The notes beneath the pieces are model-generated. The model had not been told where the DNA came from. It ran no database searches and saw only the letters and a program-made list of their open reading frames with translations. From positions 1-64,000 of the forward strand of contig NZ_JAIVMG010000011.1 of the NCBI RefSeq assembly GCF_020177335.1: a stretch of 64,000 nucleotides of DNA, written 5' to 3'. Origin of the DNA: Stappia indica. GTDB lineage: Bacteria > Pseudomonadota > Alphaproteobacteria > Rhizobiales > Stappiaceae. Below are positions 208 through 19,970 of the stretch, in pieces (the stretch's first letter is position 1; every line of letters starts with the position of its first letter). The translations under genes and the position numbers were made by a program.

Positions 208-1296
208 CTCACTGCAGTCCTGATTTCCGGCGATCTGTTCGATGGCAAAGAGCGCAGCGCAAGAACGGGCGCCTTCCTGATGGCCGAGCTCGACCGCCTT
301 GGCGATGCGGGGATCAGAGTTTTCTACATCAAGGGCAATCATGATGCCGAGAACCCGATCACCGGAACGCTCGATCTGCCTGCCCACGTTCACGCTTTCG
401 ATGCACGCGGCGGCATGGAGCCGCTGACAGACGACATCGTGATCCACGGTGTCAGCTTCGCGGACCGTCACGCGCCCGACAGCCTTCTGCCGCGGTTCAA
501 ACCGCCGGTTCCGGGCGCGGTGAATATCGCCATGCTGCACAGCTCGCTGGGCGGTGCGGTGGGCCATGATATCTATGCCCCCTGCAGCCTCGCCGATCTG
601 GCCGGCATGGGGTTCGATTATTGGGCGCTCGGCCATATCCACAAACGGCAGGTCCATTCGGCCGCACCCTGGATTGTCATGCCCGGCACCCCGCAGGGGC
701 GCGATATAGGCGAGTCCGGCCCAAAATCCGCAACGCTGCTGACCATCGATCAGGGCCGGATCGACATTAGCGAAGTGCCCAGTTCCGTCGTGGAATTCGC
801 CCAAAGCGAACTGGATGTGACAGAAACCGAGAGCGACGAGGCCCTGCGCGCGCTGCTGAAGTCCCACCTGAATGCGCTGCGCAACCAGATCGCGGCGCCG
901 ATCGGCGTGATCCGACTGATCTTGACCGGAACGCCAAAGCGCCACTGGCAAATCCTACGGGATCGCGATGTCTGGATCGAACAGGTGAACGAGCTTGCTC
1001 AGGCCACCGGGGATCTCTGGATCGACAAACTCCTGTTCGACCTGCCGCCGCTGGACGCAACCGAAGGCGCAAGCGGCGCCGCCGACGAACTGGCGACGAT
1101 CATGGCAACGATCCGCGGCGAGCCCGGCTTTGCCGCCCTCGCCCGCGACGAGGTCGAGACCGTCCTGCAGGAACTGCCCGTAGCCCTGCGCGACCGTTTG
1201 CTGCCGGATGAGGCCGTGCGCGATGCGATGGTGGATAAATTGACCAAGGCCGGCGCCGACCTCCTCCTGGCCCAGATGAAGGGGGCCGGACACTGA
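208..1296 (+). pseudogene. SbcD/YhaO-like DNA repair exonuclease, 5' end removed by IS insertion
   Basis: This is a calcineurin-like metallophosphoesterase of the SbcD/Mre11/YhaO type, the nuclease partner of the ATPase encoded next. The open frame starts at 208, right after the IS end. It reads LTAVLISGDLFDG (the GDxxD metal motif), then GNHD, then LGHIHKRQ (the GH.H motif). The first metal-binding motif (DxH), which should lie about 40-50 residues before GDLFDG, is missing because the IS interrupts the gene. An internal ATG at 280 gives 338 aa but lies beyond the GDLFDG motif, so a product from it would lack two metal motifs and should be inactive. The 5' part may survive on the other side of the IS, outside the window. 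The stop overlaps the start of the ATPase gene by one base (TGATG), showing an original operon. Confidence 0.75.
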
Positions 1297-4200: not shown

Positions 4201-4734
4201 ATTGCGGAATTGGTCGAACAGAAAGCGACGCTGGAACTGCAGCTCGAAGAGGCTGCCTTGGAGCATCTCGAACTTTCCCTGGGCCATCACCTCGCCTCCG
4301 ACGCCATCCGGCGCTATCGCGACAGCCATCGCAGCGGCATGTTGACCGCGACGGAAAGCTGCTTCGCCAGTCTCACGCAGGGCGCCTATCCGACGCTGAG
4401 TACCCAGATCGACAAGGAGTCCGAGATTTTGCTCGCCGTCGATGGCAATGGGGTCAGCAAGCGTGCGGCCGAAATGTCGAAGGGCACGCGCTTCCAGCTA
4501 TACTTGGCGCTGCGGGCAGCGGCCCACGAACAACTTGTCGCGCAGGGCACGAGGCTCCCGTTCTTTTGCGATGACATCTTCGAAACCTTCGACGAGGCGC
4601 GCACCAGCGCCGCCTGCCGCGTCATGGAAGCCATCGGCGCGCGCGGCCAAGCGATCTACCTGACCCACCACCGCCACGTGGTCGAGATCGCAAAGAGCGT
4701 TTGCGCAACGCCTCCGGTCATTCATGACCTTTAA
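1296..4734 (+). pseudogene. SbcC/YhaN-like AAA ATPase with an internal frameshift
   Basis: This is a large coiled-coil ATPase of the SbcC/Rad50/YhaN type, about 1145 aa if the frame is repaired. The N-terminus has a Walker A motif (GPNEAGKTT, near residue 36). The middle is long, charged and alanine-rich coiled coil. The C-terminus has Walker B (LPFFCDDIFETFDEAR) and an IYLTHH switch motif. The frame that starts at 1296 reads correctly to about 4100 (AALEGELDSN), after which the sensible protein continues in the +1 frame (DPILAHAEDEL) to the stop at 4734. One extra base near 4095-4105 explains this. Unread, the first frame runs to 4574 with an arginine- and proline-rich false tail and no Walker B. 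It is either a real inactivating mutation, consistent with the broken nuclease partner, or a sequencing error. It forms an operon with the upstream nuclease and the dGTPase downstream. Confidence 0.75.
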
Positions 4735-4758
4735 GACATCGCGCCGAGGAGAGTTGAT

Positions 4759-6099
4759 TTGAATACCTGGAATGCTCGCCGAGAGGCCTGGACCCAGCAG
4801 CAGGAAGACGCCCGGAACATCGGGGATGTCGACTATGGCCGGGTGATCCATTCGGCATCATTCAGAAGATTGCAGGGCAAGACCCAGATCCTGAATCTCG
4901 GCGACAGTGACTTCTATCGCACGCGCCTGACGCATTCCCTGGAAGTGGCTCAGATCGCGGGAGGGCTCGCAGTCCAGCTTACGCGCAGTTTCGCCGATCA
5001 CCCGGCAACTGCGACTCTGCCGGATCGCAGCCAAATCCATGCGATCGCCTGTTCGCACGACCTTGGCCACCCGCCTTTCGGCCATGGCGGTGAAGTCGCC
5101 CTGAACTACTGCATGCGCGATGCGGAAGGGTTCGAGGGCAACGGCCAGACCCTGCGTCTGCTGGCACGGCTCGAAAACTTCTCTGCCGCCGCAGGGGCCA
5201 ACCTGTCACGCCGTTCCATGCTTGGCGTCTTGAAATACCCTGTTGCACTCTCAGGGCTGCGGAACCCCGAACTGTACCCCCGGTTGCAGGAGGGCCCTTC
5301 GGTTTTGCGAACCATCGACTTGAAAGCCCCGACCCCGCCGAAGGGATATCTCGACAGCGAAACCGACGTCGTCGACTGGATCCTCGAACCGCTCTGCGAT
5401 GCTGATCGAGATGCCTTTACTTCTATCGAAAAGCGCGAAGGCAAGCATGCCCGCACTCTCCACAAGTCTCTCGATTGCAGCATCATGGATCTCGCGGACG
5501 ATATCGCCTATGGGGTCCATGATTTGGAGGATGCCATTGCCCTTCGGCTCGTCACAGAGCGCCAGTTCCGAGACCTCGTTCCCGAGGAATCCTGCAAGAG
5601 CTTTGTCGAAGAACGGCGGCTGAAAGGCCCCACCGAGAGCAACGCCCCATACGAGGCCATGGTCGACGGGCTGTTTGGCGACAGCAATACGCGCAAGCGC
5701 TGGGTCAGCCGGTGGGTCAATCATCTGATTACACCCGTCCGTTTCATCGAACGTCCCGAATTCCAAGAACGCTTGCTCCGCTGGCGCGTCGAGATTCCAG
5801 AAGGTCACGCCCGCTTCCTCAAGGCCCTAAAAGAGCTCGTAATGCAGGTGGTTATTCGCAGTCCGGGCGTGCAACATCTCGAATTCAAGGGGCAATCCAT
5901 GGTTGTCTCGGTCTTTGAAGCCATGCAATCAGATCCAGAGCGTTTGCTGCCGCGCGATGCGCATGCGAAGTTCGAAGCAGCAGGTGGCGACCTCCGGTAC
6001 ATCAGCGATTTCGTGGCCGGCATGACAGATACCTATCTTCTTAAGACCTATGAAAGGCTGTTCGAGCCCAGGATGGGCTCAGTGTTCGATAAGCTTTAG
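4759..6099 (+). CDS. dgt: dGTP triphosphohydrolase (dGTPase), HD superfamily
   Basis: The family hydrolyses dGTP to deoxyguanosine and triphosphate. The 446-aa protein shows the family start (FRRLQGKTQI), the first HD histidine in RLTHSLEVAQI, the HD pair in CSHDLGHPPFGH, and a later conserved Asp in MDLADDIAYGVHDLEDAI. Translation probably starts at a TTG at 4759, because GAGGAGAG lies six bases before it and the next plausible start would remove family residues. It follows the SbcC-like gene by 24 bp on the same strand and looks intact, unlike its two neighbours. In an island with anti-phage genes, a nucleotide-depleting defence role is possible, since dGTPases that starve phages of dGTP are known. 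A housekeeping role is equally compatible with the sequence. It is convergent with the helicase gene at 6117, 17 bp away. Confidence 0.9.
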   Translation: MNTWNARREAWTQQQEDARNIGDVDYGRVIHSASFRRLQGKTQILNLGDSDFYRTRLTHSLEVAQIAGGLAVQLTRSFADHPATATLPDRSQIHAIACSHDLGHPPFGHGGEVALNYCMRDAEGFEGNGQTLRLLARLENFSAAAGANLSRRSMLGVLKYPVALSGLRNPELYPRLQEGPSVLRTIDLKAPTPPKGYLDSETDVVDWILEPLCDADRDAFTSIEKREGKHARTLHKSLDCSIMDLADDIAYGVHDLEDAIALRLVTERQFRDLVPEESCKSFVEERRLKGPTESNAPYEAMVDGLFGDSNTRKRWVSRWVNHLITPVRFIERPEFQERLLRWRVEIPEGHARFLKALKELVMQVVIRSPGVQHLEFKGQSMVVSVFEAMQSDPERLLPRDAHAKFEAAGGDLRYISDFVAGMTDTYLLKTYERLFEPRMGSVFDKL

Positions 6100-6116
6100 C
6101 GAGTCCTCGCCCACAA

Positions 6117-8186
6117 CTAAAGTTTAACAACTTCAGGAAAGAAGGATGCAATCTGGTCAGCCTCTTCCTGACTTTTCATCAAACGAACACATACGAGACT
6201 TTTCTTTGCTCGCGAACAGGCAACATAAAAAAGTTTCCTTGATGAAATTTCCCGTTTTGAAACAGGTACGTCCTTTGAAAAGCAGCTCACGAAATCATAC
6301 TCCGTCGTCCAACCATACTCGTCGATAACGAGAAGCACGTTTTCGATGCCTGTGCCTTTCGTTTTGTGCATCGTGGAAAACTCGCTTTCATTGTCCTCAT
6401 ACTCGTAGAACGCCAATATCTCCCTCAGCGGGAGATCGATGGAAAACAAAGAATCTAGAAACTCCTTTTGCTTCAGATCATTTAACCTTTCGTCGTATTC
6501 CTGCTCCAGCATCTCGACGCTGATATGCTTTGCACTCGTGGCAGCCACCTCTTTTGACATTTGGAGTTTGGTACGGTGGCCGTTCCGGTGTAGTTCTTCA
6601 AACTCGGAAAAAACAGGATCACCTGCAAGCTTTGCCAAAAGCTCATTGCGCCGATCTATAAAATCCTTGTGGCTGTCTGAAACTTTTATCAAGCCACATT
6701 CGGCGGCATACTCTATGGCCTCATAGGCGGCGCGATCCTTCGACCCGAACGAGTGAAGCATTTCATCGAGCTTGGCCTTATCCGCCACTGACGTAATAGA
6801 AAATCCGCGCTTCCGTAGTTTCGCGATCAAGCGGTTATATGAGCGCCTGTCGCCCGGCAAACTTCTGTATAGAGCAACCAGGTCAATCAGCTCGCCAAAC
6901 TGTAACCTGTCAAGCATCTTGCGCATGCGATCCCGTGGTTCGGTGTATCGATCATCAAAAATCTGATATAGCCTTCCAAATCCGACATCGTTCGCAATAG
7001 ATTTATTCGTCAGTTTCAACTGAACGTAGCCCGGATACTCAGAGGCGGACCTGTCAACCAACGCATCAAGTGCACTTCTGAACAAGACGGTATTTGTCCT
7101 CCGGTCTTCCGCCTTGTCGCCAGTATCAATCTCCGCAGGAGCCAAGTCGTACACCAGCTTCACGCTACCCTGGCGGCTCTCAAGGGTTTCAAGGGCTCCA
7201 TCATCAAGCGATTTCAGTGCTACATCCTGCTTTAGACCGTCCGTCCGAAATTTATTGCTAAAATCAATGACCTGGGGGGAGCACCGATAATTATCTTCCT
7301 TCTCGACAAGAATAAGCTCTTTGGCATCGATATGTGACTGAGCGCTTCCTATACCATCCGAATAGATGGCCTGTTCGGAGTCGCCGAACAGGCCTATGAT
7401 GGTCTTCGCGTCTTCAGGCAAACAGCGCAGAAGGACGCGAACGACATCTGCACTTGTGTCCTGATACTCATCGATAAAGATGCAGTCGTGCCGATCTGAT
7501 ACGATCCTGCCCAGCAGCGGGAAGCTCTCAAATATGTGGCAGGCCAACGCGATCAAGCCATCATGGCCGAATGAAGGATCGTTGAAGTTGTCAAAGGCAG
7601 TATCATTGTAGAAAAACTCGTTCGGGTGTCTCGCCGCCAGCTTGTCGCGGATTGCCTCGTTGACCTCGCCGATCAACCCATTTAGCTGCGCAATGTATGT
7701 GTCGGGTTCCTTGTCGTATTCCCGCTTTCCGGTGACCTTCGCTGTATCTTCACCGAATACCGTTCTGCGGCGGTTTTCGAGCTGGCCGTGCGCCTTCTTG
7801 AATCGGTCGTGCTCCTCCTTCTTCCTCACCTTTTCGTCGCCGTTATAGTGGTTATCTCCAAGGGCAACAAACTCGGGTAATTCGAAGAGCTTCGGAAAAA
7901 CCTGCTGGATGTTCTTCTTGAACGGCGAAATAATCTCGCCCAGGAACGAGTGAATTGTTGAAACCTTGATATCGCTGGATACACGATCAGCAATTTCGTC
8001 TGCTGCTTTGTTCGTATGAGTGATGCACGCAATACGAAGGCTTGGATTGGCCTTCAGAACCTTTTGAACGACTCTCTTCAGACTCTCCGTCTTTCCACTT
8101 CCGGCCCCGCCTTGAAGAACGAAGTTCTCGCTGCCGGAAACGAGCTCTGCGATCCGATCTACCGGATTCAGTTTTTGTGAATCCAT
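6117..8186 (-). CDS. UvrD/Rep-like superfamily 1 helicase, Gabija GajB-like
   Basis: This is an ATP-dependent DNA helicase of superfamily 1, 689 aa. The Q/Walker A region reads FVLQGGAGSGKTESLKR (near residue 28). An ACITHTNKAADEIADR segment corresponds to motif Ia, IFIDEYQDTSADVV is motif II, and FGDSEQAIYSDG is motif III. FSTMHKTKGTGIENVLLVIDE matches motif V and LFYVACSRAKKSLVCV matches motif VI near the C-terminus. It begins inside the end of the OLD-family gene (19-bp overlap), so the two are co-translated. This pairing and order match Gabija, in which GajA is a nucleotide-sensing nuclease and GajB a UvrD-like helicase. The protein is longer than the GajB I remember (about 500 aa), so I call it Gabija-like rather than confirmed. 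The gene is visibly richer in A+T than core genes, which suggests recent transfer. Confidence 0.8.
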   Translation of the reverse strand: MDSQKLNPVDRIAELVSGSENFVLQGGAGSGKTESLKRVVQKVLKANPSLRIACITHTNKAADEIADRVSSDIKVSTIHSFLGEIISPFKKNIQQVFPKLFELPEFVALGDNHYNGDEKVRKKEEHDRFKKAHGQLENRRRTVFGEDTAKVTGKREYDKEPDTYIAQLNGLIGEVNEAIRDKLAARHPNEFFYNDTAFDNFNDPSFGHDGLIALACHIFESFPLLGRIVSDRHDCIFIDEYQDTSADVVRVLLRCLPEDAKTIIGLFGDSEQAIYSDGIGSAQSHIDAKELILVEKEDNYRCSPQVIDFSNKFRTDGLKQDVALKSLDDGALETLESRQGSVKLVYDLAPAEIDTGDKAEDRRTNTVLFRSALDALVDRSASEYPGYVQLKLTNKSIANDVGFGRLYQIFDDRYTEPRDRMRKMLDRLQFGELIDLVALYRSLPGDRRSYNRLIAKLRKRGFSITSVADKAKLDEMLHSFGSKDRAAYEAIEYAAECGLIKVSDSHKDFIDRRNELLAKLAGDPVFSEFEELHRNGHRTKLQMSKEVAATSAKHISVEMLEQEYDERLNDLKQKEFLDSLFSIDLPLREILAFYEYEDNESEFSTMHKTKGTGIENVLLVIDEYGWTTEYDFVSCFSKDVPVSKREISSRKLFYVACSRAKKSLVCVRLMKSQEEADQIASFFPEVVKL

Positions 8187-10198
8187 TTCAAACCATCCAT
8201 TATATATTTCGGCACACGCCAGCTTTCGCCCTCTACAAGCGCCAAGTATAAAACCGATCCGGCAAAATCGGATTTCTTTCCAAGTATCTGAGCTGTGAGA
8301 GAATAATAGTCATTACCGCTGAATTCCTCCAGCGTATCCCTATTTTTCAAACCAGCCAACGTATCCTTGCGGGCCTTGACTTTATCCAAGTTGATCGAAA
8401 TGAAAGCGTCTTCAAAACTTCTTGCGTGGTAACCGTCCTCCGCTAGCTGGTAGGCAAGCTCAATCTGCCCTTCGCCCGAAGAGGCAGCTCCATCTACCAG
8501 CCGCTTATGCCAGTCCGAGAAGTCCTTCTCTTCCTTAGGATCAGGGGCTGAGAGGAAGTGCTTCAGGGTTTCATTTGAGGTGTGGCTCGACTCCGCAACA
8601 GGACAGGCGGGATAGCTGGTCTTTCCCGTCTTCTCACTGACAATCGATTTGGTTGTGTCGATATCGGTGATGACCAATGTGCGAACGCCAATGAATTCAA
8701 GGAACGGAGCAAACGCACGCGCATTAGCGCCGACTTCAAGAACGGATATGTTCTGCGAAGACAGCCCGCTCTCCGTCGTTTCATCGACGTTTTCCTTGTC
8801 ATGCATCTCGATGAATAGAGGAAGCAGGATGCGTTCCGTGGTTCCCTCGATGAAGATCGCTTTACTTGCAAAGAACAGCTCAGCAGAGTTGATTGTAAGG
8901 TACTGCTTGAGAAACTGAAAAAGCGCTGCTCCGTCCGCTCCAAGCTCTTCGTACCTGGCGCTCAGATCAGTGTGGAAATTCTTGATCGTAACAGGTTCCG
9001 CCAGGGACGGTCGTGAAAGATACCTGATGTCCTCAAAGTTCGATTTAGAAACGATGTGGGACGAATGGGTTGTCAGCAAGGCCTGCAAGTTAGGAATTTG
9101 CGAGATCAATCCATGGATTTTGTCCGCAAAGACATACTGCATCTGCGGATGCGTGTGCGCTTCGGGTTCTTCGATAAGCAGGAGGTTAAGAGGGGCGTTT
9201 CGTCTGGCAAAGTCGTCACGGCACAACTCGATCTGTAACAGCAGATAAAGGATGTTCAAATATCCGAGTCCGCTATGGTGCTCAGGAAGAAAGTTGTCGG
9301 TTTCTCCGTATATGACTTGCGATGAGGTTTCGATCAGCGATTGTGATTGGATGTTTGAGACGACCTTCAAATCGCCCAGCCCCAGAAAGTCGCGTGAGCT
9401 TTTTAGAAAGCCCCCGAAAACCTGCGCATACTGCTCTCCGAGCTGATCATCGATGCTGGCAAGCATTGATCTGAGCTTTTCAATACTTTCAGCCTCTGCC
9501 CCGGTAGTCTCGTCATCGTTCTCGGCCTCGATGTCACGTTTTCGAAAGAACCTGGTAGATATCGTGGACAGGGGTTTCGCACCACGTCCGAAATCTTCGG
9601 AACTCGCAACATTTCTGCGCGCATGAATGACCTGAAAATTCAAAAGCGCCCGTACTTCGGATCGTTCTTTTTCTTCCAGTTGATCGCGGTGCGTCAGGTA
9701 GTATGGCGCTTCTTCGGCGTGCCCGAAATCATCAAACGCATAAATTCTGACATCCAGAAACTTGCCGCTGAGGTTGTTTTCAATGAACTTCTTTCGCTCT
9801 TTTGAGTCGGTTGGCAACACGGTAAGTAGTTTCTTCTTATCAATGCAGCATTCGAAAAGAATGTTGGTATGTCGCCGTGCCGGATCAAGGTCCAGCATGA
9901 ACTCGGAGAGTATCGCCAGGTTATCATTTTCGTCATAAGCTATGCGCAGCACCAGCCTGATCGCGAGTTCCTGGACATTCGTATCATCGTCGATGCTGAG
10001 AATTTTCTGCCTTATCGGGATCGGAAAGTCCGTATAGGAAAAGTGGTCGGGTCGCTCCAGAAACCTCTCCAGCAAAACGGCAAAGGATGTCTTTCCGGTA
10101 TTATTCTTGCCGACAAGAAGCGTTGTCTTTTCCCGCATATCGAGGCAGCAATTTTGCAGAAGCCGGAAATTTTCAATTTTGATCTGCTCAATATGCAT
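8168..10198 (-). CDS. OLD-family ATP-dependent endonuclease (AAA ATPase plus TOPRIM), Gabija GajA-like
   Basis: The 676-aa protein has an ABC-type ATPase in its N-terminal half. MHIEQIKIENFRLL is followed by Walker A GKNNTGKTS near residue 31, and later by Walker B LLLIEEPEAHTHPQM and the LTTHSSHI switch. The TOPRIM nuclease domain follows: AIFIEGTTERILLPLF carries the catalytic Glu, and TLVITDIDT carries the DxD. In GajA this domain nicks DNA when nucleotides are depleted. The short C-terminal part after about residue 560 is not recognised. It is the first gene of a two-gene unit with the UvrD-like helicase. No good ribosome site is visible before the ATG. Alternatives are a class 2 OLD nuclease-helicase pair not tested as Gabija, or the related retron- and PARIS-type ATPases. 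The helicase partner favours Gabija. Confidence 0.82.
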   Translation of the reverse strand: MHIEQIKIENFRLLQNCCLDMREKTTLLVGKNNTGKTSFAVLLERFLERPDHFSYTDFPIPIRQKILSIDDDTNVQELAIRLVLRIAYDENDNLAILSEFMLDLDPARRHTNILFECCIDKKKLLTVLPTDSKERKKFIENNLSGKFLDVRIYAFDDFGHAEEAPYYLTHRDQLEEKERSEVRALLNFQVIHARRNVASSEDFGRGAKPLSTISTRFFRKRDIEAENDDETTGAEAESIEKLRSMLASIDDQLGEQYAQVFGGFLKSSRDFLGLGDLKVVSNIQSQSLIETSSQVIYGETDNFLPEHHSGLGYLNILYLLLQIELCRDDFARRNAPLNLLLIEEPEAHTHPQMQYVFADKIHGLISQIPNLQALLTTHSSHIVSKSNFEDIRYLSRPSLAEPVTIKNFHTDLSARYEELGADGAALFQFLKQYLTINSAELFFASKAIFIEGTTERILLPLFIEMHDKENVDETTESGLSSQNISVLEVGANARAFAPFLEFIGVRTLVITDIDTTKSIVSEKTGKTSYPACPVAESSHTSNETLKHFLSAPDPKEEKDFSDWHKRLVDGAASSGEGQIELAYQLAEDGYHARSFEDAFISINLDKVKARKDTLAGLKNRDTLEEFSGNDYYSLTAQILGKKSDFAGSVLYLALVEGESWRVPKYIMDGLKWIHKN

Positions 10199-10470
10199 GT
10201 CGGGAATACGCCTTAATTTTCGGCCACTTTCTGGGGCCGATATTTACCCACTTGATATCACGAGACACTCCAACGTGCAAAAGGTGGTTGCAGCTCGATT
10301 TCGGGTTGCAGAGCGCTCGGTTCTGAAACCGCGTGCACGTCAGTTTCCAGCGCTGTTGCATAACTATCTCGACTGAACAGCGAAAGTCCGCTTCCTACAC
10401 TTCGCGGCAAAGACGTCACGCTGCAACGGCCATGCTTCTGCTGACAACAACTGTGGGACAGACGTAGCGT

Positions 10471-12654
10471 TCAATTTAAGGATCCTTTTCGAACAATAGC
10501 TGCGACCACATCCGGAAGCGCCTGCACCGACAACCTTGAGGATTCCGCGTCCAGAACCAGAAGCGCGCTAGACAGATATGGATGAAACTTCTCCGGCATC
10601 AGGTTTCCTGCTCCCGCGAACAAGTCGACAGGTTCGCCGGATCGAATATCGGCCAGGAGTGCTCGAAGATCAGGCGTTTCATCGCCGACCTCCACCAGCA
10701 GAAACCCGTCATGCTGCTCTACTGAAAATCCCTCACTTCTAAGTGCGAGCGCCAGGGTTGACGTCTTAACCGTCCCCACTCGCGTTGCGATGATCGATGT
10801 ACGCTCGCCGAGAGCCTGGATATTCGTGGCTCGAAACCCAAGTTGGTCATAATGTGCACGCGCTTCGGCCAGCATCTTTAGAGAAGCCGCGTCCATGTAT
10901 GCCGGTTGGGTGCCTCCTTCGAGCACTGCGAACATTCGATCAATCACCTTGTCATGAATATCACCTGGATCACCGCCAAAGACGGGAGGCACGCCCGCTT
11001 TCGCGGGCTTGACCATGATCACCTTCTCGCGGTCATGGATTTCCTGAACCACCCACCGCCGCCCAGAGAAAATCAGAAGCATCCCTGGGGCAAGAACATT
11101 GTCGATCGGCAGGGTCCCAAGATCCCTCCCTTCTGCTACCAAGCGGAATTCCTCAGGCGTCTGAAACACTGCGTAGAAGCTGTAGTGTTCGACCAGCTGT
11201 TCGCCTGCAGGTCCCAAGAGTAGCAGTCCGCTTCCGGACTGTTCGATCAAACCGGTTTCGGTATGACCGATCGAACGCAACACATCTGCGAACACTTCGG
11301 TTGTGACCTTGCGAAAGGGGCCCTCGCGACACAGGATACTGTAGACCACACTGGCAGAAGCACCGCCGCGTTGTGCTATGACCGACAGTATCTGATGGAC
11401 GAGCGTCGAAAGATGAAGCGCCTGCGGTCTTGCCGGTTCGCACCAGCCCTCAAGCAACAGGTCTATCATCGCGATAGACCGGATCAATCCAAGGCGAAGT
11501 CGATCAACGAAGCTGCTTTCTGGCGTCAACTGAGTCTCGACGGCATACTGCCGCAAGACGGCTGGCTGTCCCTCGCGTCGGCCGGACCGGCCGAGACGTT
11601 GTCGCAACGCGGCGACGCTGAATGGCGCGCCGATTTGGGCCACGCAGGTCACATCACCGATGTCGATTCCAAGCTCGAGCGTCGACGTGCAGACGGCAGT
11701 TGTCGGCTTTGCGGCGTCCTTTAAGCGGCGTTCCACGAAGTCTCGGTGTTCGCGGGAGAGGCTAGCGTGGTGAGGATAGAATTCCTGCGGCAGATGTTCC
11801 CTCTCGCAGAGTTCCCGCAGCCGATCTGCATAGATCTCGACTCGTTGCCTCGCCCCAGCGAAGACGAGGTTGTCGCTGCCTCGAAGGTGCTTGAACAGAT
11901 GGGCTGCGATGGCATCCGTTGCGGATGGGCTGTTTTCGTCCTCATCGCCTGATACGTAGCCGCGAAGCTGGAGCCTCAATTCAGCCTCGCCGCCATCTGC
12001 TTCTATGAGCTGGACAGCGTTTGCAGCGTCAGGGCGAAGATAGGCCTTGGCGAGGTCCATGTCGCCCAGCGTAGCAGACAGACCTATCCGACGGATTGGG
12101 CGCTTTATCGTGAGCTCGAGCCTTGTGAGCAACGAACGGAGCTGGACACCGCGTTCGCTATCTAGAACCGTGTGCAACTCATCGATAACAACCGCGCGCG
12201 TGGCCCCAAACAGGCGGCTAATTTCCAAACCGCGACGAATGAACAGTGCCTCAAGGGACTCTGGAGTTATCAGCAGGATCCCTTTTGGAGATTTCAGCGC
12301 GCGCGTCTTGATCGATTGAGAAACATCCCCGTGCCATGGAACAACCGGCAGCTCTGCTTCCTGGCAGATGCCCTCCAGCCGCATGGCCTGGTCCGTGATC
12401 AAGGCTTTCAGCGGACCGATATAAAGCAGGTCGAAGCCGATGCCGCCGAACGGTTCGTCAAGCACCTGTGAAATCAACGGCAGGAACGCCGCCTCGGTCT
12501 TTCCGCCCGCCGTGGAAGCCGCAACGATCAAATCGGCATCGGTCTCGCAGATCGTCCGGATGGATCGCGCCTGGATGTCGCGAAGCTCGCGCCATCCTTG
12601 CTGGCATATCCATTTCTGCACAGGCCTCGCCAGCTTGTCGAAAGCACTGCTCAT
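10471..12654 (-). CDS. Lhr-like DEAD/DEAH-box superfamily 2 helicase
   Basis: This 727-aa superfamily 2 helicase is related to the Lhr-type helicases, including BrxHI of BREX loci. Motif I is AASTAGGKTEAAF (near residue 47), motif II VVIDELHTVL, motif III GLSATLGD, motif IV LVFAGARQRVE, and motifs V-VI TLELGIDIGDVTCV and LRQRLGRSGRREGQ. The last 300 residues contain a winged-helix-like region and an Lhr-core-like part (VLAPGMLLIFSGRRWVV). It is third and last in a minus-strand operon, 5 bp after the ATPase gene, which implies coupled expression. The pairing of an Lhr-like helicase with a BrxD-type ATPase recalls brxD-brxHI of type 2 BREX, but pglX, pglZ and brxC are absent. A DNA-translocating part in a three-protein DNA-processing system is inferred. 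Confidence 0.85.
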   Translation of the reverse strand: MSSAFDKLARPVQKWICQQGWRELRDIQARSIRTICETDADLIVAASTAGGKTEAAFLPLISQVLDEPFGGIGFDLLYIGPLKALITDQAMRLEGICQEAELPVVPWHGDVSQSIKTRALKSPKGILLITPESLEALFIRRGLEISRLFGATRAVVIDELHTVLDSERGVQLRSLLTRLELTIKRPIRRIGLSATLGDMDLAKAYLRPDAANAVQLIEADGGEAELRLQLRGYVSGDEDENSPSATDAIAAHLFKHLRGSDNLVFAGARQRVEIYADRLRELCEREHLPQEFYPHHASLSREHRDFVERRLKDAAKPTTAVCTSTLELGIDIGDVTCVAQIGAPFSVAALRQRLGRSGRREGQPAVLRQYAVETQLTPESSFVDRLRLGLIRSIAMIDLLLEGWCEPARPQALHLSTLVHQILSVIAQRGGASASVVYSILCREGPFRKVTTEVFADVLRSIGHTETGLIEQSGSGLLLLGPAGEQLVEHYSFYAVFQTPEEFRLVAEGRDLGTLPIDNVLAPGMLLIFSGRRWVVQEIHDREKVIMVKPAKAGVPPVFGGDPGDIHDKVIDRMFAVLEGGTQPAYMDAASLKMLAEARAHYDQLGFRATNIQALGERTSIIATRVGTVKTSTLALALRSEGFSVEQHDGFLLVEVGDETPDLRALLADIRSGEPVDLFAGAGNLMPEKFHPYLSSALLVLDAESSRLSVQALPDVVAAIVRKGSLN

Positions 12655-12659
12655 CGGCG

Positions 12660-13967
12660 TCAGAGCTTGAAGCTGATCAGATCATCGTCACCCGCGGTTT
12701 CGGCACCAGTGGACTCGTCGACCTCGGTCATGTCTTCGCCGCGGTCTTCGGTTACCTCGATCTTTTCGATCAGATCGCTCCATTCGACACCGGGGTTTTG
12801 CTCGAGCACGGAAAGCAGGTTCACGAAGGCCGTCACCGTATTGCGCGGTGTCCGGAAATACGCCTCGCCGATCCGATCCGAACAATGTGCCATGAAGGCC
12901 TCGAGCGCGGTGTCCGGCAAAGCACCGGCGTCGTCCTGCATGATCCGCCGAATGTTGGCCAAAAGAACGAAGAGGTCTTCGGGGGTCAGGCTGGCCAGCC
13001 GGACAACGGGCCCTGAAAGGTCGACCAATCTGTCTCGCGCGAAGGTGTTCTCGGCCAAACGCGACTGGAGGGCCTCGTAGCTGTAAAGCCCTCGACGGGT
13101 GTTCATCAGGAATTCCGGTGTGCCGCCCATGAGAAATCCGAGGTTCTCGGCACTGCCCTGCAGTACATCATTCAGGATCCGGAGGATCTGTTCGTAGTTT
13201 GCATTGCGAGCTTGCGACGAGGTCAGCTTGTAGAGGTTCACCATCTCGTCGAGGCCGACGAGCAAGCCTTTGTAACCGGCTTCACACACGAATGCCGACA
13301 TCAGCTTCAGATGGTCATAGACACTGGTATCGTCGATGATCGTTCGCACTCCAAGCGCCTTGCGCGCGTCGGTGCGTGTGGCGAATTCACCACGCAGCCA
13401 TCTCAAGGCAGCGGATTTCAACTCGTCGTCGCCGGTCTCATGGCCTTCCCAATATCGCCGGATCACCTCTGCGAATTCAAAACCCCCGGTGAGCTCTTCG
13501 AAGTGACCAAGGCGTTCACGAATGACAGACCCCGTGGGCGCATCGCGTTCCTCAGCATCGCGGTGTGCCTGGCTAACGAAACGCTCCACCACGCTGGCCA
13601 AGGCCCCGCCATCTGGCTTTGTCCGTGTCGACAGGTTTCGGGCCATCTCTGCATAGAGGCCTCGAGCTTGACCGCCGGTCGCGTGAATGCGCCGGTCGGG
13701 CGCCAGGTCCGCGAACATCACCACCAGACCCTTTTCAAGCGCGACAAGACGGATCAGATTCATGAAGAACGTCTTTCCCGATCCGTATTCTCCAATGATG
13801 AACCGGATCGCCGATCCGCCGTCGGATATCCGGTCCATGTCCTTGACGAGCTCTTCAATCTCGCGGACGCGGCCGACCTGGATGTGACGCAGGCCGAGCT
13901 TGGGCACGACCCCGGCCCGAAGCGCCTGTACGATTGCATCGCGTTCACGTGGTTTCAACTTCGACAT
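12660..13967 (-). CDS. BrxC/BrxD-type P-loop ATPase (DUF2791)
   Basis: This 435-aa ATP-binding protein resembles BrxD of BREX loci (formerly DUF2791). Walker A is GEYGSGKTFFMNLI (near residue 57 from this start). A GLLVGLDEMVNLYKL segment is Walker B, and a sensor-like LGFLMGGTPEFLM follows. The C-terminus is acidic. I chose the ATG at 13967 because GGAGGG lies six bases before it; an ATG at 13982 would add five residues. Its first 23 bases overlap the end of the TerB-type gene, so translation is coupled. The family is ORC/Cdc6-like (AAA+) in its broader class and is thought to act on DNA with the partner helicase. The partner set here (TerB_N protein and Lhr-like helicase) is not a BREX set. 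Confidence 0.82.
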   Translation of the reverse strand: MSKLKPRERDAIVQALRAGVVPKLGLRHIQVGRVREIEELVKDMDRISDGGSAIRFIIGEYGSGKTFFMNLIRLVALEKGLVVMFADLAPDRRIHATGGQARGLYAEMARNLSTRTKPDGGALASVVERFVSQAHRDAEERDAPTGSVIRERLGHFEELTGGFEFAEVIRRYWEGHETGDDELKSAALRWLRGEFATRTDARKALGVRTIIDDTSVYDHLKLMSAFVCEAGYKGLLVGLDEMVNLYKLTSSQARNANYEQILRILNDVLQGSAENLGFLMGGTPEFLMNTRRGLYSYEALQSRLAENTFARDRLVDLSGPVVRLASLTPEDLFVLLANIRRIMQDDAGALPDTALEAFMAHCSDRIGEAYFRTPRNTVTAFVNLLSVLEQNPGVEWSDLIEKIEVTEDRGEDMTEVDESTGAETAGDDDLISFKL

Positions 13968-16488
13968 CCCTGCCCTCCGCACTCATCTTTTCTTTTACCG
14001 CCTCCGCAATCTCCGGAGACACGTCATATCCATCATACTCGTCGAGCAGCGCTTCATCGTAGGTCTCAAAAGCCCATTCATTCACGACTTCCAAAGCCCC
14101 GGATACCATCAAACCATGCGAGGCGCAGATCTTCTCGAACTCGGTCTCAGACCAATGCTCCCGGGTAAGTACTTCGAGGACAAGTGCGCCGTGTTTCGGG
14201 TCAAGCCCTGCCACCTGGCTTTGGTAGTCAGGCGTGGAGGCACCGCTTTCTTCCTCTTCGACATCGAAAATCTGACCGAGGACGGACGAAACACGCTCGG
14301 TGTCCGAACGGATTGCTGCGATCCGCGAAGCGTCGAGCTTGGGTCCGCTGGCTTTCTCAAGATCGGGTATCGCTTCGCCCGGACGACCCGGTTTCGAGGC
14401 ACGAACAGTGCGAGGACCATCCGCAACTTCGCCAGCATGCAGGTCTGAGTAGGCAAGCGCAGGATCTAGACCCAAAGCCTTGTAGATTTTCTCGATGCTT
14501 GCAACTTCGTCGGAGTGAATAATGCCATCGGCATGTGCTGCACCAACCAGCGCTGCCCGCATAGCGGCCAGGCTGTCTTGGCCCACCTCCTTCAGTTTGC
14601 GCCGCAGAAGCGTCATGTCCGGTGGCACGGCCAGAAACCATTCAAGGTTTGCACGCAGCCTGCGGCGTTCCTGATCGCTGAGGGACGCGGCAGAAACCTG
14701 ATCTTCCAGTGCCCTGCGTTCAGGATCCGCGATGCGACCATCCGCATGAGCAACGAACGACCCAAGTGCCAATTCAATCAGAGCGCTTCGATAGCTGTCG
14801 GAAACTTCCTCCAGTCTTTCGATGGGTTCGCCCAGGCTGAACAGGACAACAGGCTCCTCCGCCTTGGGCGACCGGAGCGCAAACCGAGGGTCGGGCGCCA
14901 GACCGAAACCGAGGCGGGCGAGCGCATCGGCCGCTCCTGTCATCTGCCGTTTCCCGATCTTCTCGCTCGTTTCTCCCTCCAGACGTCCGATCACCTCCTC
15001 AAGCGGCACCAATCCCCCCCGATCGACGATAGTGCTTGCCCAAGATTTCAAGCGGTCCATTTCCTCTGATGGGAAGGCATCCCACAGTTCAGAGGGTAGC
15101 AAGGCATGCGCTTCCACGCTTCCGCGACCATCAGGGTTTCGGCCCAGGAAGCGACTGAGCTTGTCGAGGTCGGTCATCACCTCGTCAGCCAACTCTTGGG
15201 CAATCTCAACCGGTTTGCGCAGGCCGGAAATATCGGGAACCGGCTTGCCGTCGACGGTTGGGTTGGCGGCCCCCTGAAACTCGCTGGAGGCGGCCCGATA
15301 GGATGCCGTGAGTGATTTCCGGGGTTTTGTAACTTTGAGCCCATCAGGAAAACGCCGATCAAACCGCATACGGAAAAGAGCAACGAACTCGTCGCGACAC
15401 CGCGTCGCGGGAGTTCTCAGGTTTGTTTCCGGATGGCAGATGAACCAACTCAGCAACCAGTCAGCTGTCAGGTTCTCGCCTTTGTCAATCCGAGCTCCGA
15501 TTGCGTATTTGAGTGAGAACGGAAGTTCCCAGCCCTCCCTCTCTAAAATCGGCTCGATAGCGTCGAGGTCGGTTTCGGCAAGCATCGCAATGTCGAGGAA
15601 CTCGCCCAAATAGCGCCTGACGGAGTGGTTGTCAGGGTAAAGTGACTGCAGCCGCCGGACTTCCTGGACGATATCCTTGGCATCTTCGTTGGACTGATCG
15701 ACGAAGAAGCGTCGCTCCAGCCCATAAAAGTACATGAACATGTACCCGGGGTTATATGAGGCATCGTTTCGCCCGCTGGCCAACCAATTAAGGTAGGTCG
15801 CCCGGCACTGAGGTGAGATATCCGAGTACCCCGGCCAGTAGGGCATACCTTCACCATCTTTGTCGGCTCCAGAGCGTGCGACCGACAGGGACGGATCGAT
15901 ATGGGCTCGGCATTTGTCACGATACCCGTAGGTGTTCAACAAGGGAGGCGTGCCGACATAGACCATCCCACCGATGTTGCGGCCGGCCACGCTAGCAGCT
16001 TCGCTTGACGGAACCCACCCGCTTTTCGTTGATCGGGTCGATGCGCTCGACGCCACTCGTGAGGGCTGGTTTCGTTCTGCGACCGCCGCAAGTGCCGGCG
16101 CCGCAGCCTTTCCAACCCGAACGATTTCACCGTAGTCCTGCTTTGGTGGGGAATAGGCTTGAACGGCAGCCGGCGCTTTGGACGCAATGGCTTCGCGAGT
16201 TCGTTCGCGCTCACGCTCGATACGCTTGTCGTAGGCACTTGGGCGCGGCACCGACTCAGGTCGCGATGTTCGAGTTTCGGAACTTCCCCCGGCTGGCGCT
16301 TTTGCAGCGACTTTCCGCGATCTCCGCTTTTCTTGCCACCAGACCAAAATGATAGGAGCACCGAATGCGAACAACATTTGGCCACCCACCGGCCACCCCT
16401 GGAGGACTGTGACCACCACGATCATGCAAAAGATGAAGTAGACAAAAAGAAAGAATGAAATTCGGAAAAACTTGAGTAATGAAGACAC
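13945..16488 (-). CDS. Membrane-anchored TerB_N / TerB / TerB_C protein
   Basis: This protein of about 847 aa begins with two hydrophobic segments (residues about 5-30 and 33-55), followed by basic residues, so it is probably anchored in the inner membrane. A low-complexity linker with many Arg, Ala and Ser follows. Next is a TerB_N domain of roughly 200 residues (VGTPPLLNTYGYRDKCRAHI, WPGYSDISPQCRATYLNWLA, YMFMYFYGLERRFF). A TerB domain near residues 575-690 has two acidic AHADG motifs (FVAHADGRI, AAHADGIIHSDE), the expected metal-binding pattern. The C-terminal 110 residues (LTREHWSETEFEKICASHGL) fit TerB_C. The GTG at 16488 is preferred because GGGGGAGGGG precedes it; the frame is open to a GTG at 16512. 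It is first in the operon with the BrxD-type ATPase and Lhr-like helicase. The function is unknown; I infer a membrane-linked sensor or scaffold for that DNA machine. Confidence 0.8.
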   Translation of the reverse strand: MSSLLKFFRISFFLFVYFIFCMIVVVTVLQGWPVGGQMLFAFGAPIILVWWQEKRRSRKVAAKAPAGGSSETRTSRPESVPRPSAYDKRIERERERTREAIASKAPAAVQAYSPPKQDYGEIVRVGKAAAPALAAVAERNQPSRVASSASTRSTKSGWVPSSEAASVAGRNIGGMVYVGTPPLLNTYGYRDKCRAHIDPSLSVARSGADKDGEGMPYWPGYSDISPQCRATYLNWLASGRNDASYNPGYMFMYFYGLERRFFVDQSNEDAKDIVQEVRRLQSLYPDNHSVRRYLGEFLDIAMLAETDLDAIEPILEREGWELPFSLKYAIGARIDKGENLTADWLLSWFICHPETNLRTPATRCRDEFVALFRMRFDRRFPDGLKVTKPRKSLTASYRAASSEFQGAANPTVDGKPVPDISGLRKPVEIAQELADEVMTDLDKLSRFLGRNPDGRGSVEAHALLPSELWDAFPSEEMDRLKSWASTIVDRGGLVPLEEVIGRLEGETSEKIGKRQMTGAADALARLGFGLAPDPRFALRSPKAEEPVVLFSLGEPIERLEEVSDSYRSALIELALGSFVAHADGRIADPERRALEDQVSAASLSDQERRRLRANLEWFLAVPPDMTLLRRKLKEVGQDSLAAMRAALVGAAHADGIIHSDEVASIEKIYKALGLDPALAYSDLHAGEVADGPRTVRASKPGRPGEAIPDLEKASGPKLDASRIAAIRSDTERVSSVLGQIFDVEEEESGASTPDYQSQVAGLDPKHGALVLEVLTREHWSETEFEKICASHGLMVSGALEVVNEWAFETYDEALLDEYDGYDVSPEIAEAVKEKMSAEGRDVEVETT

Positions 16489-17273
16489 TATCGCCCCTCC
16501 CCCTTCAGTCACACTATTTTACACGAACACCATTTCAATCATTAAAGCAGAGCCTGAACAGTTTTCCGGCCACCGTCCACTGCCCAATGAGGTGACAGCG
16601 GTCATGCCCCAAGCACTTGAGGCACTTCACCGCCCCCTCATCTGAGCTCGCCACCACGGAGATGATCACAGAGGGAGTGGGTGGTATTGGGGATAACGCA
16701 TTCATCTCGCGCGTTGACTGGCACCAGCGCCACCGAAGCTACACATCAACCCCAGACTGCCCTCCCGCCGCATGATGGTAGCCCCGGTCGCCCTGCATTG
16801 CCCTCGGATGCGGCGATCCAGTTCGTTTGACCACCAAGGTCCTGCTCAAGCTGCCGCTACTGCAAGCGACTGAGTGCAAGCGACTGAGATAGTGGCCAGC
16901 CCGTTGAAGATGGCGGACCTGGACTGGACGGAGGCGTATCGAGGCAAAGATGCGTTGCCTGAACTCCTTCGAAAAACGCTTTGCCGCTAGAAACCCCGGC
17001 CGCTAATCCGCCGAGATCAAGATGCGCGTTGCACTGATGAACCGCTTCTCGGCCGTCGGCACCGCCGGGATCGTCTGCATCGCCTGACAAAGACCGGTAA
17101 AGGGGCCGTCACTCCTCAAGCCATCGTTCCGCGACAACGCCGCGGTGGCCTTGAAGGTGCAGCAGGCCAAACTTGGACTAGCCCTAACATGTCGTCGCCG
17201 CGATCTTCAAAAAAGGCATCCGCGAAAAATTTGGTACTTGGTACACAAAATGACCGCTTAGTGTATTGACTAT
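16489..17273. other. Island gap with promoter region and IS5 remnant
   Basis: This stretch of about 785 bp separates the TerB-type operon from the primase gene. Its left end should hold the promoter of the minus-strand operon, but I see no clear promoter motif. From 16807 to 17087 it holds decayed IS5-family transposase sequence, annotated separately. I recognise no gene between 16513 and 16800. Confidence 0.6.
16807..17087 (+). pseudogene. IS5-family transposase remnant
   Basis: Pieces of an IS5-family transposase can be read in shifting frames: DAAIQF, then LTTKVLLKLPLLQATE, IVASPLKMADLDWT, and finally the C-terminal SAEIKMRVALMNRFSAVGTA. The central catalytic part (about 200 codons) is missing, so the copy has a large internal deletion plus frameshifts and a stop. 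It cannot be active. It marks past transposition into the island between the cargo and the integration module. Confidence 0.7.
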
Positions 17274-18587
17274 ATGAATATATTCTGGATCAAACCGTCC
17301 AATCCATCATTGGCCCCATATCACTTCGATAGGGGGGGAGAGATGGTCCATCCAGCAACAAGGCGGGCTGCTTTGAACGCCGCAATGGCAGTGGGGGCAT
17401 CAGTCGACATCGGTTTTGTCTTTCCTCCTCGGGCTACCGAGGAGCGGGGACGAGGCATTTGGACAGGTCGCAACTTGATGCCAGCAGATGTCGGGGAACT
17501 GCTTCCTCGGGCGGCAGCCGCAAACGCCCAGGGTGCCGCCATATTTATGCGTCTCGGGCCATCGGCCCGGGACGGGCATCCCGGAACCGTTATGCTTGAT
17601 GATCTGAATGCTGAAGCTGCAACGCGCATTGCGCTTGACGGCTTTCAGCCAGCTTTGACCGTTGAGACGTCACCGGGGAATTTTCAAATTTGGATCAGGC
17701 TCATGGCCGCCGGCGAACTGCCGTACCTCGTTGTTCGCTATGCGGTCAAACACCTGTCGCAACTTTATGGCGGTGACCCTAGAGCCGTCAGTCCAATGCA
17801 ACCGGGCCGATTGCCAGGCTTCACCAATCGCAAGCCAAAACACCGCCAGGCAGACGGACATTTCCCGTTTGTCCGTCTGGTGGATGCCAGTGGCTGTATC
17901 GCGTCCGCCGGACCAAACTTGGTTGACGAGATAAAGGCAAACCTCCCGGCACAGCGCGGCCGCGCCCAAGGCGCTGCCTCTGAAACGCCGCCGGTGGCGG
18001 CGGTGTCTAGCCGTCCTCGCGCCATGGAGGATTTCGATGCGCTCGACAGGATCCGCCAAGCGCAAGAGGAGCGCATTCGGGCCGAAGCCAAACGTGGCAG
18101 TCGGCCTCGGGAAGCTGCTTCTGAATCGGAAATCGACTTCGCCGCTGTGGTGGTTGCACTCGGCGAGGGCGTGCCCAGACCGATGCTGGAGGCCTGGCTC
18201 AGGATGCGCCGGCCGGATATGCGGCCCTCACTGTCCAGAATGCCGACCAATACTTGGAGGATCAAACCAGCACGCCGCAACCGTCGGGCCGCCGATGAAG
18301 AGATATTTGACACGGCGGGAGGTTGCGGAAATCTATCCGATCTCGGAAAGCTCCCTTGCGCAACTCGCGATGAGGGGCGAGGGGCCACGGTATTTCATGC
18401 CTCAGAACCGCGCCCTTTACCTTGCCGGGGACGTGGAGGAGTGGATCGAGGCACATCCTGTCATTGCGCGGTCGCGCCCGATGCTGAGATCACGCAAGTT
18501 CATCGAGGAGAAACCTGTCACGCTGCAACAAGCTCCCGGGCCAAAGGCGGAAACCACTCGACGGGAGCCCATCCAGGAAGAGCCTAA
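17274..18587 (+). CDS. RepB-like DNA primase of an integrated element, probably frameshifted near its end
   Basis: The protein resembles the RepB-type (DUF3854/primase-polymerase-like) replication primases on integrative elements. Recognisable parts are GRGIWTGRN, PGTVMLDDLNAEAATRI, VETSPGNFQIWIRL and the PGRLPGFTNRKPKHR segment that is typical of the family. The open frame gives 437 aa, but after about residue 315 it becomes rich in Arg, Gly and Cys and runs over the next gene, so the tail looks false. In the -1 frame the same region reads AGYAALTVQNADQYLEDQ and stops with TGA at 18296-18298, overlapping the next gene's ATG (ATGA). A frameshift near 18185-18230 is therefore likely. An ATG at 17343 behind GGGGGGAGAG is a better start than the one at 17274. 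It probably served replication or maintenance of the element. Confidence 0.6.
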   Translation: MNIFWIKPSNPSLAPYHFDRGGEMVHPATRRAALNAAMAVGASVDIGFVFPPRATEERGRGIWTGRNLMPADVGELLPRAAAANAQGAAIFMRLGPSARDGHPGTVMLDDLNAEAATRIALDGFQPALTVETSPGNFQIWIRLMAAGELPYLVVRYAVKHLSQLYGGDPRAVSPMQPGRLPGFTNRKPKHRQADGHFPFVRLVDASGCIASAGPNLVDEIKANLPAQRGRAQGAASETPPVAAVSSRPRAMEDFDALDRIRQAQEERIRAEAKRGSRPREAASESEIDFAAVVVALGEGVPRPMLEAWLRMRRPDMRPSLSRMPTNTWRIKPARRNRRAADEEIFDTAGGCGNLSDLGKLPCATRDEGRGATVFHASEPRPLPCRGRGGVDRGTSCHCAVAPDAEITQVHRGETCHAATSSRAKGGNHSTGAHPGRA

Positions 18588-18687
18588 AAAGGTGGGGGCG
18601 CAAAAAGGCAAGAAGCGCGGGAGGCGGCGCAAGAGCTTGGTGCCGTCAGCCAATTACTGGCTCCGAAACAATCCCGATCATCAATGA
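18295..18687 (+). CDS. AlpA/excisionase-like helix-turn-helix protein
   Basis: This 130-aa protein starts MKRYLTRREVAEIYPISESS. It continues with a winged-helix segment ending in FMPQNRALYLAGDVEEWIEA, the pattern of the AlpA/MerR-like excisionase superfamily (HTH_17). The C-terminal half is basic and low in complexity (KKGKKRGRRRK), suggesting DNA binding. The start overlaps the stop of the repaired primase frame by four bases (ATGA), and I chose it because everything upstream in this frame is unlike a protein. It ends 25 bp before the convergent integrase. It probably controls excision or integrase expression. Confidence 0.72.
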   Translation: MKRYLTRREVAEIYPISESSLAQLAMRGEGPRYFMPQNRALYLAGDVEEWIEAHPVIARSRPMLRSRKFIEEKPVTLQQAPGPKAETTRREPIQEEPKKVGAQKGKKRGRRRKSLVPSANYWLRNNPDHQ

Positions 18688-18712
18688 GGGGTTGCTGCCG
18701 GAGCCAGGATGC

Positions 18713-19791
18713 TCATACCGCAATGCGCAGGCTACCGGCTGCTTGACGCTCGCTCTCCATTTTGCGTAGGCGCGCCACTGCATCGCTCACCCGCGGGTGT
18801 CGATAGCGCAGCAGCGACTTGATATCGACGTGGCCGGAAAAGTCCATCACCTGCTCAGCGGTCCAGCCATGATCAAAACAACGCGAAATCGCCTCATGCC
18901 TGAAATCGTGCCAACGCCAATGGGCGACACCAGCACGTAGACGTGCCCGCTCGAACGCGTTCTTCAGTGCCTCAGCGGAAATCGGGAAGATATGTCCTTC
19001 CCTTTTCTCGCGGCCGGGAAGCTCTTCGACGACGACCTGCGCGGCGTAGGTAAGCAGAATATCCCTTCCGCGCCCGTTCTTGGCGTCGTGCAGATAAATC
19101 GTTCCGCCGTTGTGGCTGTAATCACTCCAGCGAAGGCGCAGCAGTTCGGACCGCCTGCACCCGGTCTCCAGTGCGAACCGGGCGGCCGGTAGAAGAAGTT
19201 TGTTTCGTGCACAGGCGAACTCGTGGAAGAGCCGGTCCTCCTCATCCGGTTCGAGCCGGATAATGCGCTCGTCCCGTACCTGGGGGCGGCTGACCTGGTC
19301 CAACGGAGAGCCAAGCATCTCAAGATCAATCGCTGCCTGTCTCATGACCGGCATCAGCAAATTCATTTCCCGGCGGACGGTGCTGGATTTCACCTCTTCC
19401 AGCCGCAGTGCCTTCCACTCAACCCAATCTTGGCGGGTAATATTCGCCATGCTCATCTGACAGAATGGGGGATAGCGTTTGATGAAAGTGGAGAGACGTG
19501 CGGCTTCGCCGTCTTTGCCCTTTTCTCGCTTTTCTGGACTTCCCTAATGGCATTCTCCAGCACTTCACCGAGGGTGATCCGCTCCGGAGCCCGGTGGTCG
19601 CGACGGCTGCCATGGTTGCGGACATTGAGGACCTGGACGACGGCGGCATCGGCATCCGCCAGCCGGTCGAACGTTTTCGTGTAGTCGGGGAAGCCTTTCT
19701 TGCGGATCTTGACCTGATAGCCGGTCAGGCGTCCGTCCGAGGAAATGCGCTCATATACGTGAGGATGGTTGTTGAGTTTCTTGGTCGGCAC
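18713..19791 (-). pseudogene. Tyrosine site-specific integrase, split by a frameshift
   Basis: The C-terminal part (frame open from 19456 to 18713) has the tyrosine recombinase catalytic residues: Arg in ETGCRRSELLRLRW, Lys in LHDAKNGRGR, HDFRHEA, the second His in FSGHVDIKSL and the nucleophile in LLRYRHP. The N-terminal part (from the ATG at 19791) is an arm-binding domain, MPTKKLNNHPHVYERISSDG to REVQKSEKRAK. The two frames differ by -1, and the switch lies near 19520 at an AAAAGGG run. After it the correct frame reads GKDGEAARLSTFIKRY into the C-terminal part. Repaired, the protein is about 359 aa, normal for the family. It faces tRNA-Arg, its likely attachment site. Mutation, sequencing error or a slippage site are all possible; a broken integrase would trap the island. 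Confidence 0.75.
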
Positions 19792-19893
19792 GGGACTTTG
19801 GTTCCTTGAAATAGGATTTGTCCCAAATTTGTCCCAAACCTATGAAAGGAACAAATTTTCACCGTAGAAATTTCGCTAAGCCATTGAAAACAT

Positions 19894-19970
<77 letters not shown>

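Follow-up and report, generated by a model that had tools for sequence, protein, structure and literature searches.

A three-gene operon on the minus strand

An ORF scan of the window, that is, the whole stretch of 64,000 nucleotides of Stappia indica DNA that was analyzed, revealed three long minus-strand open reading frames (ORFs) spanning positions 10471-16512. Counted from the first GTG, the ORFs at 13945-16512 and 12660-13982 encode 855 and 440 aa, respectively, and the ORF at 10471-12654 encodes 727 aa. For the first two, starts further inside the frame look better. The GTG at 16488, which gives a SngA of 847 aa, appears preferable since the purine-rich GGGGGAGG is found just upstream and many relatives begin at the same start, and the ATG at 13967, which gives a SngB of 435 aa, appears preferable since several relatives use it as well. 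With these two starts, the tight coupling described in an earlier, sequence-only reading of this DNA, namely a 23-bp overlap followed by a 5-bp gap, was confirmed. The genes and their domains are as follows.

13945..16488 (open frame to 16512), minus strand: sngA, TerB_N/TerB/TerB_C protein of 847 aa with a predicted membrane anchor (PADLOC SngA 2e-101; Pfam; starts of relatives)
16300..16488, minus strand: SngA residues 1-63, predicted membrane hairpin (hydropathy; model helices 2-27 and 34-63)
15406..16008, minus strand: SngA TerB_N domain (PF13208)
14458..14772, minus strand: SngA TerB domain, with AHADG motifs at residues 580 and 651 (PF05099; motifs)
13996..14352, minus strand: SngA TerB_C domain, the part in common with the mosaic SngA of locus L022 (PF15615)
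12660..13967, minus strand: sngB, BrxC/BrxD-family ATPase of 435 aa (PADLOC SngB 5.8e-176; PF10923 6.5e-153; P-loop GEYGSGKT)
10471..12654, minus strand: sngC, SF2 DEAD/DEAH-type helicase of 727 aa (PADLOC SngC 4.3e-271; PF00270 and PF00271; DELH, SAT and QRLGRSGR motifs)

The approximately 790 bp upstream of sngA (16524-17313) contain no clear gene, yet they are 93-98% identical in four related loci (L009, L010, L013, and L014).

The operon encodes a Shango system

Shango is an operon of a TerB-like protein, an ATPase and a DEAD/DEAH helicase that inhibits phages (Johnson et al. 2023, PMC10250203). In the window, proteins of these three kinds are encoded together, match the PADLOC profiles SngA, SngB and SngC with the E values listed above, and recur as a unit in other genomes; at E values up to 0.01, SngA was the sole PADLOC model matched by the TerB protein. 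Since PADLOC matches all three proteins and the gene set equals that of the published system, the operon is almost certainly a Shango anti-phage system, and the E values together with the recurrence exclude chance as the origin of the three-gene set. The sequence-only reading had considered the operon a plausible new anti-phage system, stating that no defined defense system is known with exactly this set, and had named a match to an already named system as what would refute it. Such a match was found for all three proteins (PADLOC; PMC10250203); the assignment to an anti-phage operon family thus holds, and a new, undefined system was rejected because PADLOC already contains the gene set as Shango. 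The system being known, the window adds a further copy, one whose island setting is clear. The detection of Shango in E. coli islands is said to be the work of Millman et al. 2022. According to PMC10250203, that detection was made by another group, phage inhibition was demonstrated for the PA14 copy, and Shango reduced plaques modestly for many phages and not at all for some, with strong protection in liquid culture. A 2026 review places Shango among the systems of unknown mechanism (PMC12926258).

The three genes recur as a unit with a patchy distribution

A scan of genome contigs retrieved 546 SngB relatives, of which the best 80 were kept, so that this set leans to close relatives and includes near-copies. 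Among these best 80 of 546, SngC was recognized at 79 loci (it is lost at a contig end in L069) and SngA at 76, and 75 loci contained all three genes in order, overlapping or at most 20 bp apart. The trio thus recurs as a unit, as the sequence-only reading had proposed to check; the other five loci comprised four cut by contig ends and one IS-altered copy. At L055 (5660-7990), only the last codons of sngA are left, with transposase-like ORFs instead. Locus L129 was not counted, its coordinates being the same as those of L050. In six plasmid records, the DNA similar to the window extended from about 10480 to between 16490 and 16524, i.e., the operon itself; L009, L010, L012, L013, and L014 share more DNA with the window than the operon.

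The distribution of the operon is patchy. Within the family, 5 of 87 genomes had SngB, and TerB_N was present in 6 of 101 relatives; in a phylum sample, SngB was found at E <1e-150 in 11 of 398 genomes, including the genome itself, and in 24 of 398 at E values up to 0.001. A SngB relative was present in 695 plasmid records (452 from Klebsiella and 144 from Salmonella), most with less than 60% identity, and four of the 695 were inspected in detail. None of 50,697 phage records contained a SngB relative at E values up to 1e-5. On a Burkholderia plasmid, the TerB_N gene does not adjoin sngB, and one genome (G010) harbors two Shango-type loci (L090 and L095), the second with a TerB_N protein split over several frames.

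SngA carries a predicted membrane anchor

Pfam identified TerB_N (2.1e-65), TerB (1.2e-8) and TerB_C (1.7e-22) in the first protein, as the sequence-only reading had it. The two N-terminal membrane helices that it had noted are retained as a predicted anchor: by hydropathy, the first is strong (2.84) and the second weak (1.42), and both are helical in the AlphaFold model (residues 2-27 and 34-63, with a pLDDT of 77-90 for this block). The same model is weak in TerB_N (pLDDT <50 at residues 172-250) and has a pTM of 0.45. The PADLOC SngA profile comprises 528 positions and is matched from residue 139 onward, and the anchor precedes the matched region. In the available text of the Shango and TerB_N/TerB_C literature, with most subscription papers and preprints outside this coverage, no mention of a SngA anchor or cell-wall domain was found.

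A Foldseek search with the SngA model gave no match at E values up to 0.001; the matches with a probability of at least 0.95 were TerB-type (2ou3) or PG1108 (2h5n), with weak winged-helix-like matches ranking next. Searched by sequence against solved structures, SngA gave two chance-level matches (0.093 and 0.27). A hidden nuclease in SngA was rejected, with no sign of one in Pfam and Foldseek leads of the TerB or PG1108 type. The window protein contains two AHADG motifs, which make a role as metal sensor plausible. These motifs in a TerB domain, together with a TerB protein (2ou3) as the best structural match, would also suit a Ter-like system against metal or chemical stress, with phage inhibition as a side effect. 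We consider this very unlikely, given that the other 16 proteins scanned gave no Ter-family match, that the operon has a patchy distribution (5 of 87 family genomes, as above) and often lies beside other defense genes, and that Shango copies inhibit phages (PMC10250203).

To compare anchors among relatives, the best 80 of the 546 SngB relatives were surveyed after omission of four loci without a recognized SngA (L015, L055, L066, and L082) and of five SngA of less than 780 aa (L022, L045, L050, L076, and L080), which left 71 full-length proteins. Within the first 130 residues, 69 of these 71 reached a 19-residue hydropathy of at least 2.0 and all 71 reached at least 1.6. The latter value alone is not telling because the highest hydropathy inside SngB and SngC of the best 80 is 1.90 and 2.01, respectively; a value of 2.0 was reached anywhere in none of 80 SngB and in 1 of 79 SngC. 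N-terminal hydrophobic helices followed by basic residues were also observed in the SngA of an E. coli plasmid and an Aeromonas plasmid, and the archaeal SngA of Natrinema zhouii has a TM2 domain at its N-terminus.

In an order-wide sample, TerB_N was present in 18 of 397 genomes, and 17 of the 18 SngA have a complete N-terminus, that of G179 being cut by a contig end. On the basis of hydropathy, position and the basic residues behind the segment, 16 of the 17 have an N-terminal anchor, the exception being L166; for nine single-helix proteins the hydropathy (1.49-2.08) overlaps the SngB and SngC maxima, and the call rests on position and on the basic residues that follow. Six of the 17 show the order signal-like leader, PG_binding_1, membrane helix and TerB_N, with the leaders judged by eye. 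These are L091, L155, L156, L158, and L159 (by Pfam) and L157 (by blastp); four of the six belong to one genus. In L091, the second membrane helix scores less than 1.0 in hydropathy and was called by eye. Two Mesorhizobium plasmid SngA, one of them split by IS256, also have a peptidoglycan-binding domain. Overall, such a domain lies ahead of the membrane helix in the SngA of L091, L152, L153, and L155 to L159. A decayed Shango locus (L132, 4568-10273) contains a peptidoglycan-domain ORF that ends before the helix, followed by a 1,679-aa frame that contains SngA along with fragments of SngB and SngC.

The SngA front end thus occurs as a hairpin, a single helix, a peptidoglycan-binding outer domain, a TM2 domain, or not at all. 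When 46 SngA cores were placed on a tree, the 7 rows of the peptidoglycan type required three changes, of which well-supported branches force at least two. Judging from the proteins, the anchor is dispensable in some relatives, since five rows of this tree set have none and none was seen in the SngA of L022 and of a Hymenobacter copy, both of which are also devoid of TerB_N. The latter, on a plasmid (L098, 4487-6004), is a short SngA (505 aa, TerB_C only) accompanied by the ATPase and the helicase.

SngB, SngC, and TerB_C as a proposed constant core

Pfam assigned the second protein to BrxC_BrxD (6.5e-153), and its GEYGSGKT sequence bears out the GSGKT P-loop of a BrxD-type ATPase that had been reported from sequence alone. 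In the third protein, DEAD (1.2e-26) and Helicase_C (3.8e-15) were identified and WH_Lhr (0.045) remained below its cut-off, so that of the earlier description as an Lhr-like helicase the helicase core is upheld and the Lhr part is not. In the Hachiman paper, SngC falls with BrxHI, DruE and DpdJ into a helicase clade that may be distinct (PMC12278908). No nuclease family was among the Pfam matches to SngA, SngB and SngC. No solved structure matched SngB by sequence at E values up to 0.01, and its structure prediction had a pLDDT of 45, the alignment being too uniform.

The resemblance of the ATPase-helicase pair to brxD-brxHI, noted in the sequence-only reading, was borne out in that the PADLOC profiles BrxD (4e-47) and BrxHI (2.8e-114) match as well, which would suit a remnant of type 2 BREX that has retained these two genes. 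The Shango profiles, however, score far above those of BREX, with 583.9 bits for SngB versus 159.4 for BrxD and 899.8 bits for SngC versus 380.9 for BrxHI, and the window ATPase reaches 156.5 bits with the BrxD equivalog, below its cut-off of 350. The BREX genes pglZ and brxC were correctly described as absent: a search for PglZ gave no match in the whole genome (controls match in 2 of 14), and a genome search with PF10923 for a BrxC besides BrxD gave a single gene, SngB itself. Moreover, the identical trio recurs across loci (75 of the best 80 of 546). On the features tested, namely PglZ, BrxC, the BrxD cut-off and the profile scores, a BREX remnant was rejected, and we regard it as extremely improbable.

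Two sets of loci, a nearer one (42 loci) and a further one (29 loci, 28 for SngC), were compared with the window. The mean identities to the window in the nearer and further sets were 96 and 87% for SngB, 89 and 71% for SngC, 87 and 59% for TerB_C, and 69 and 18% for the SngA linker. Among the best 80 of 546 loci, L022 (55-1737) encodes a mosaic SngA in which 157 of the last 167 residues equal those of the window SngA taken as reference, with about 42 identities in the remaining 195 aligned columns (199 of 362 overall); TerB_C is present, TerB_N and the anchor are absent, and both AHADG motifs are altered. The mosaic and the graded identities, high in SngB and low in the SngA linker, suggest that a conserved core of TerB_C, SngB and SngC is joined to a membrane-sited front end that can be exchanged, with a single mosaic being thin evidence.

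The high conservation of SngB, the most conserved part, can also be read as the mark of a cytosolic DNA-sensing complex, in which SngB and SngC would find unusual phage DNA (e.g., replication intermediates) and the anchor would merely store the complex at the membrane. The helicase relatives BrxHI, DruE and DpdJ, which come from DNA-targeting defense systems (PMC12278908), and the SngA without an anchor agree with it. However, an anchor in 16 and a peptidoglycan-binding domain in 6 of the 17 complete SngA of the order sample are hard to explain without a role at the envelope, and we consider cytosolic sensing rather unlikely.

The operon lies in a defense island

Gabija begins 272 bp after sngC (GajA, 8168-10198, and GajB, 6117-8186, both on the minus strand), followed by an anti-phage dGTPase (4759-6099, plus strand) and a Mre11-like/AAA_27 pair (280-1296 and 1296-4574, plus strand). 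Shango, Gabija, the dGTPase and the Mre11-like/AAA_27 pair form one defense island (280-10198 and the operon). The other flank (17274-19970) contains a RepB-type primase, a helix-turn-helix protein, a tyrosine integrase and tRNA-Arg(ccg). Exact partial copies of this tRNA are found elsewhere in the genome (48 bp on contig C22 and 60 bp on C19), and the primase-integrase stretch at 17403-19939 has a 95% identical counterpart on C19, where the integrase ORF has 359 aa, versus 247 aa in the window. The tRNA copies and the likeness to C19 make the setting consistent with an integrated island, the far end of which lies outside the view because the window opens at a contig end. Rhodobacteraceae bacterium F11138 (L012) has Shango, Gabija and the dGTPase together, with DNA 97% identical over 4663-16705.

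Among the best 80 of 546 loci, the operon often adjoins other defense genes. Nuclease-bearing neighbors in this set were an AddAB-like pair (4 of 80), SIR2 with HerA (9 of 80), Gabija (1 of 80) and genes of the Mre11/SbcD type (14 of 80). Their kinds vary between loci, and they appear to be separate systems residing alongside Shango and not components of it. The AddAB-like pair lies directly behind sngC (2-bp gap or 1- to 4-bp overlap) at the 4 of 80 loci and on both Shango plasmids inspected; it was rejected as a fixed part of Shango, as it occurs without SngABC nearby in the two other plasmid regions inspected, out of 60 records with the nuclease. At L011, L015, L032, L050, L100, and L101, sngC is directly followed by genes for a PD-(D/E)XK nuclease and a UvrD-type helicase, and on the plasmids of L100 and L101 an additional DEAD/ResIII helicase gene makes a six-gene run. 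Mre11/SbcD-type genes, present at the 14 of 80 loci, also occur after Shango on an archaeal plasmid; the loci with such neighbors are L016, L020, L021, L024, L027, L029, L035, L039, L044, L046, L049, L054, L056, L062, and L154. Their association with Shango is a lead only, as 8 of the 14 loci share one arrangement.

A possible mechanism at the cell envelope

The two statements taken together, that the operon is Shango and that its core is sited at the membrane, are in our view moderately probable, with less confidence in each single step of the mechanism. The N-terminal hairpin would hold SngA in the inner membrane with TerB_N, TerB and TerB_C in the cytoplasm. SngA may sense or mark the entry of phage at the envelope, perhaps with metal on the TerB motifs. 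TerB_C, the C-terminal part of SngA, would couple to the ATPase SngB, which would recruit or license the helicase SngC on DNA that comes in close to the membrane. The entering DNA would be unwound or remodeled and thereby made unusable; because no nuclease domain was identified in SngA, SngB or SngC, any cutting would come from the host or from neighboring systems. The gene set, the predicted anchor, the motifs and the variation of the N-termini are observations; of the steps above, we infer the envelope sensing, the TerB_C-SngB coupling and the helicase action on entering DNA.

We tentatively propose, as a possibility short of probable, that Shango is an envelope-anchored immune system in which SngA is a membrane sensor with an N-terminal or outer part exchanged during evolution, and TerB_C, SngB and SngC are a constant ATPase-helicase core acting on DNA that enters at the membrane. 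If true, Shango would lead from contact with the cell wall to an attack on DNA by a second route, one that dispenses with the Zorya motor. The anatomy of SngA matters more than the additional copy: its anchor, its variants with a peptidoglycan-binding domain and the mosaic of L022 bear on the site of action of Shango and on the region of SngA that contacts SngB.

Comparison with known systems

The window operon resembles Shango in having a TerB-like protein, an ATPase and a DEAD/DEAH helicase in the same order, with profile matches to all three. It differs in nothing essential; the window SngA is longer than the 528-position profile (847 aa), and the anchor is not mentioned in the available text of PMC10250203. 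With type 2 BREX it shares relatives of BrxD and BrxHI, whereas its genome has no PglZ and one BrxC/D gene, a TerB protein is added, and the BrxD cut-off is missed. Bunzi (PMC10952713) and Dionysus (PMC12926258) are similar in that a TerB domain or homologue is part of a defense system; they were compared by sequence through PADLOC, where the TerB protein matched the SngA model alone. The likeness to Zorya is one of layout, with a peptidoglycan-binding membrane part and a DNA-acting cytoplasmic part (PMC11890865). Unlike Zorya, the three window proteins gave no match to a MotAB-like ZorA/ZorB motor in Pfam or PADLOC, and the peptidoglycan domain in this comparison belongs to relatives of the window SngA and not to the window SngA.
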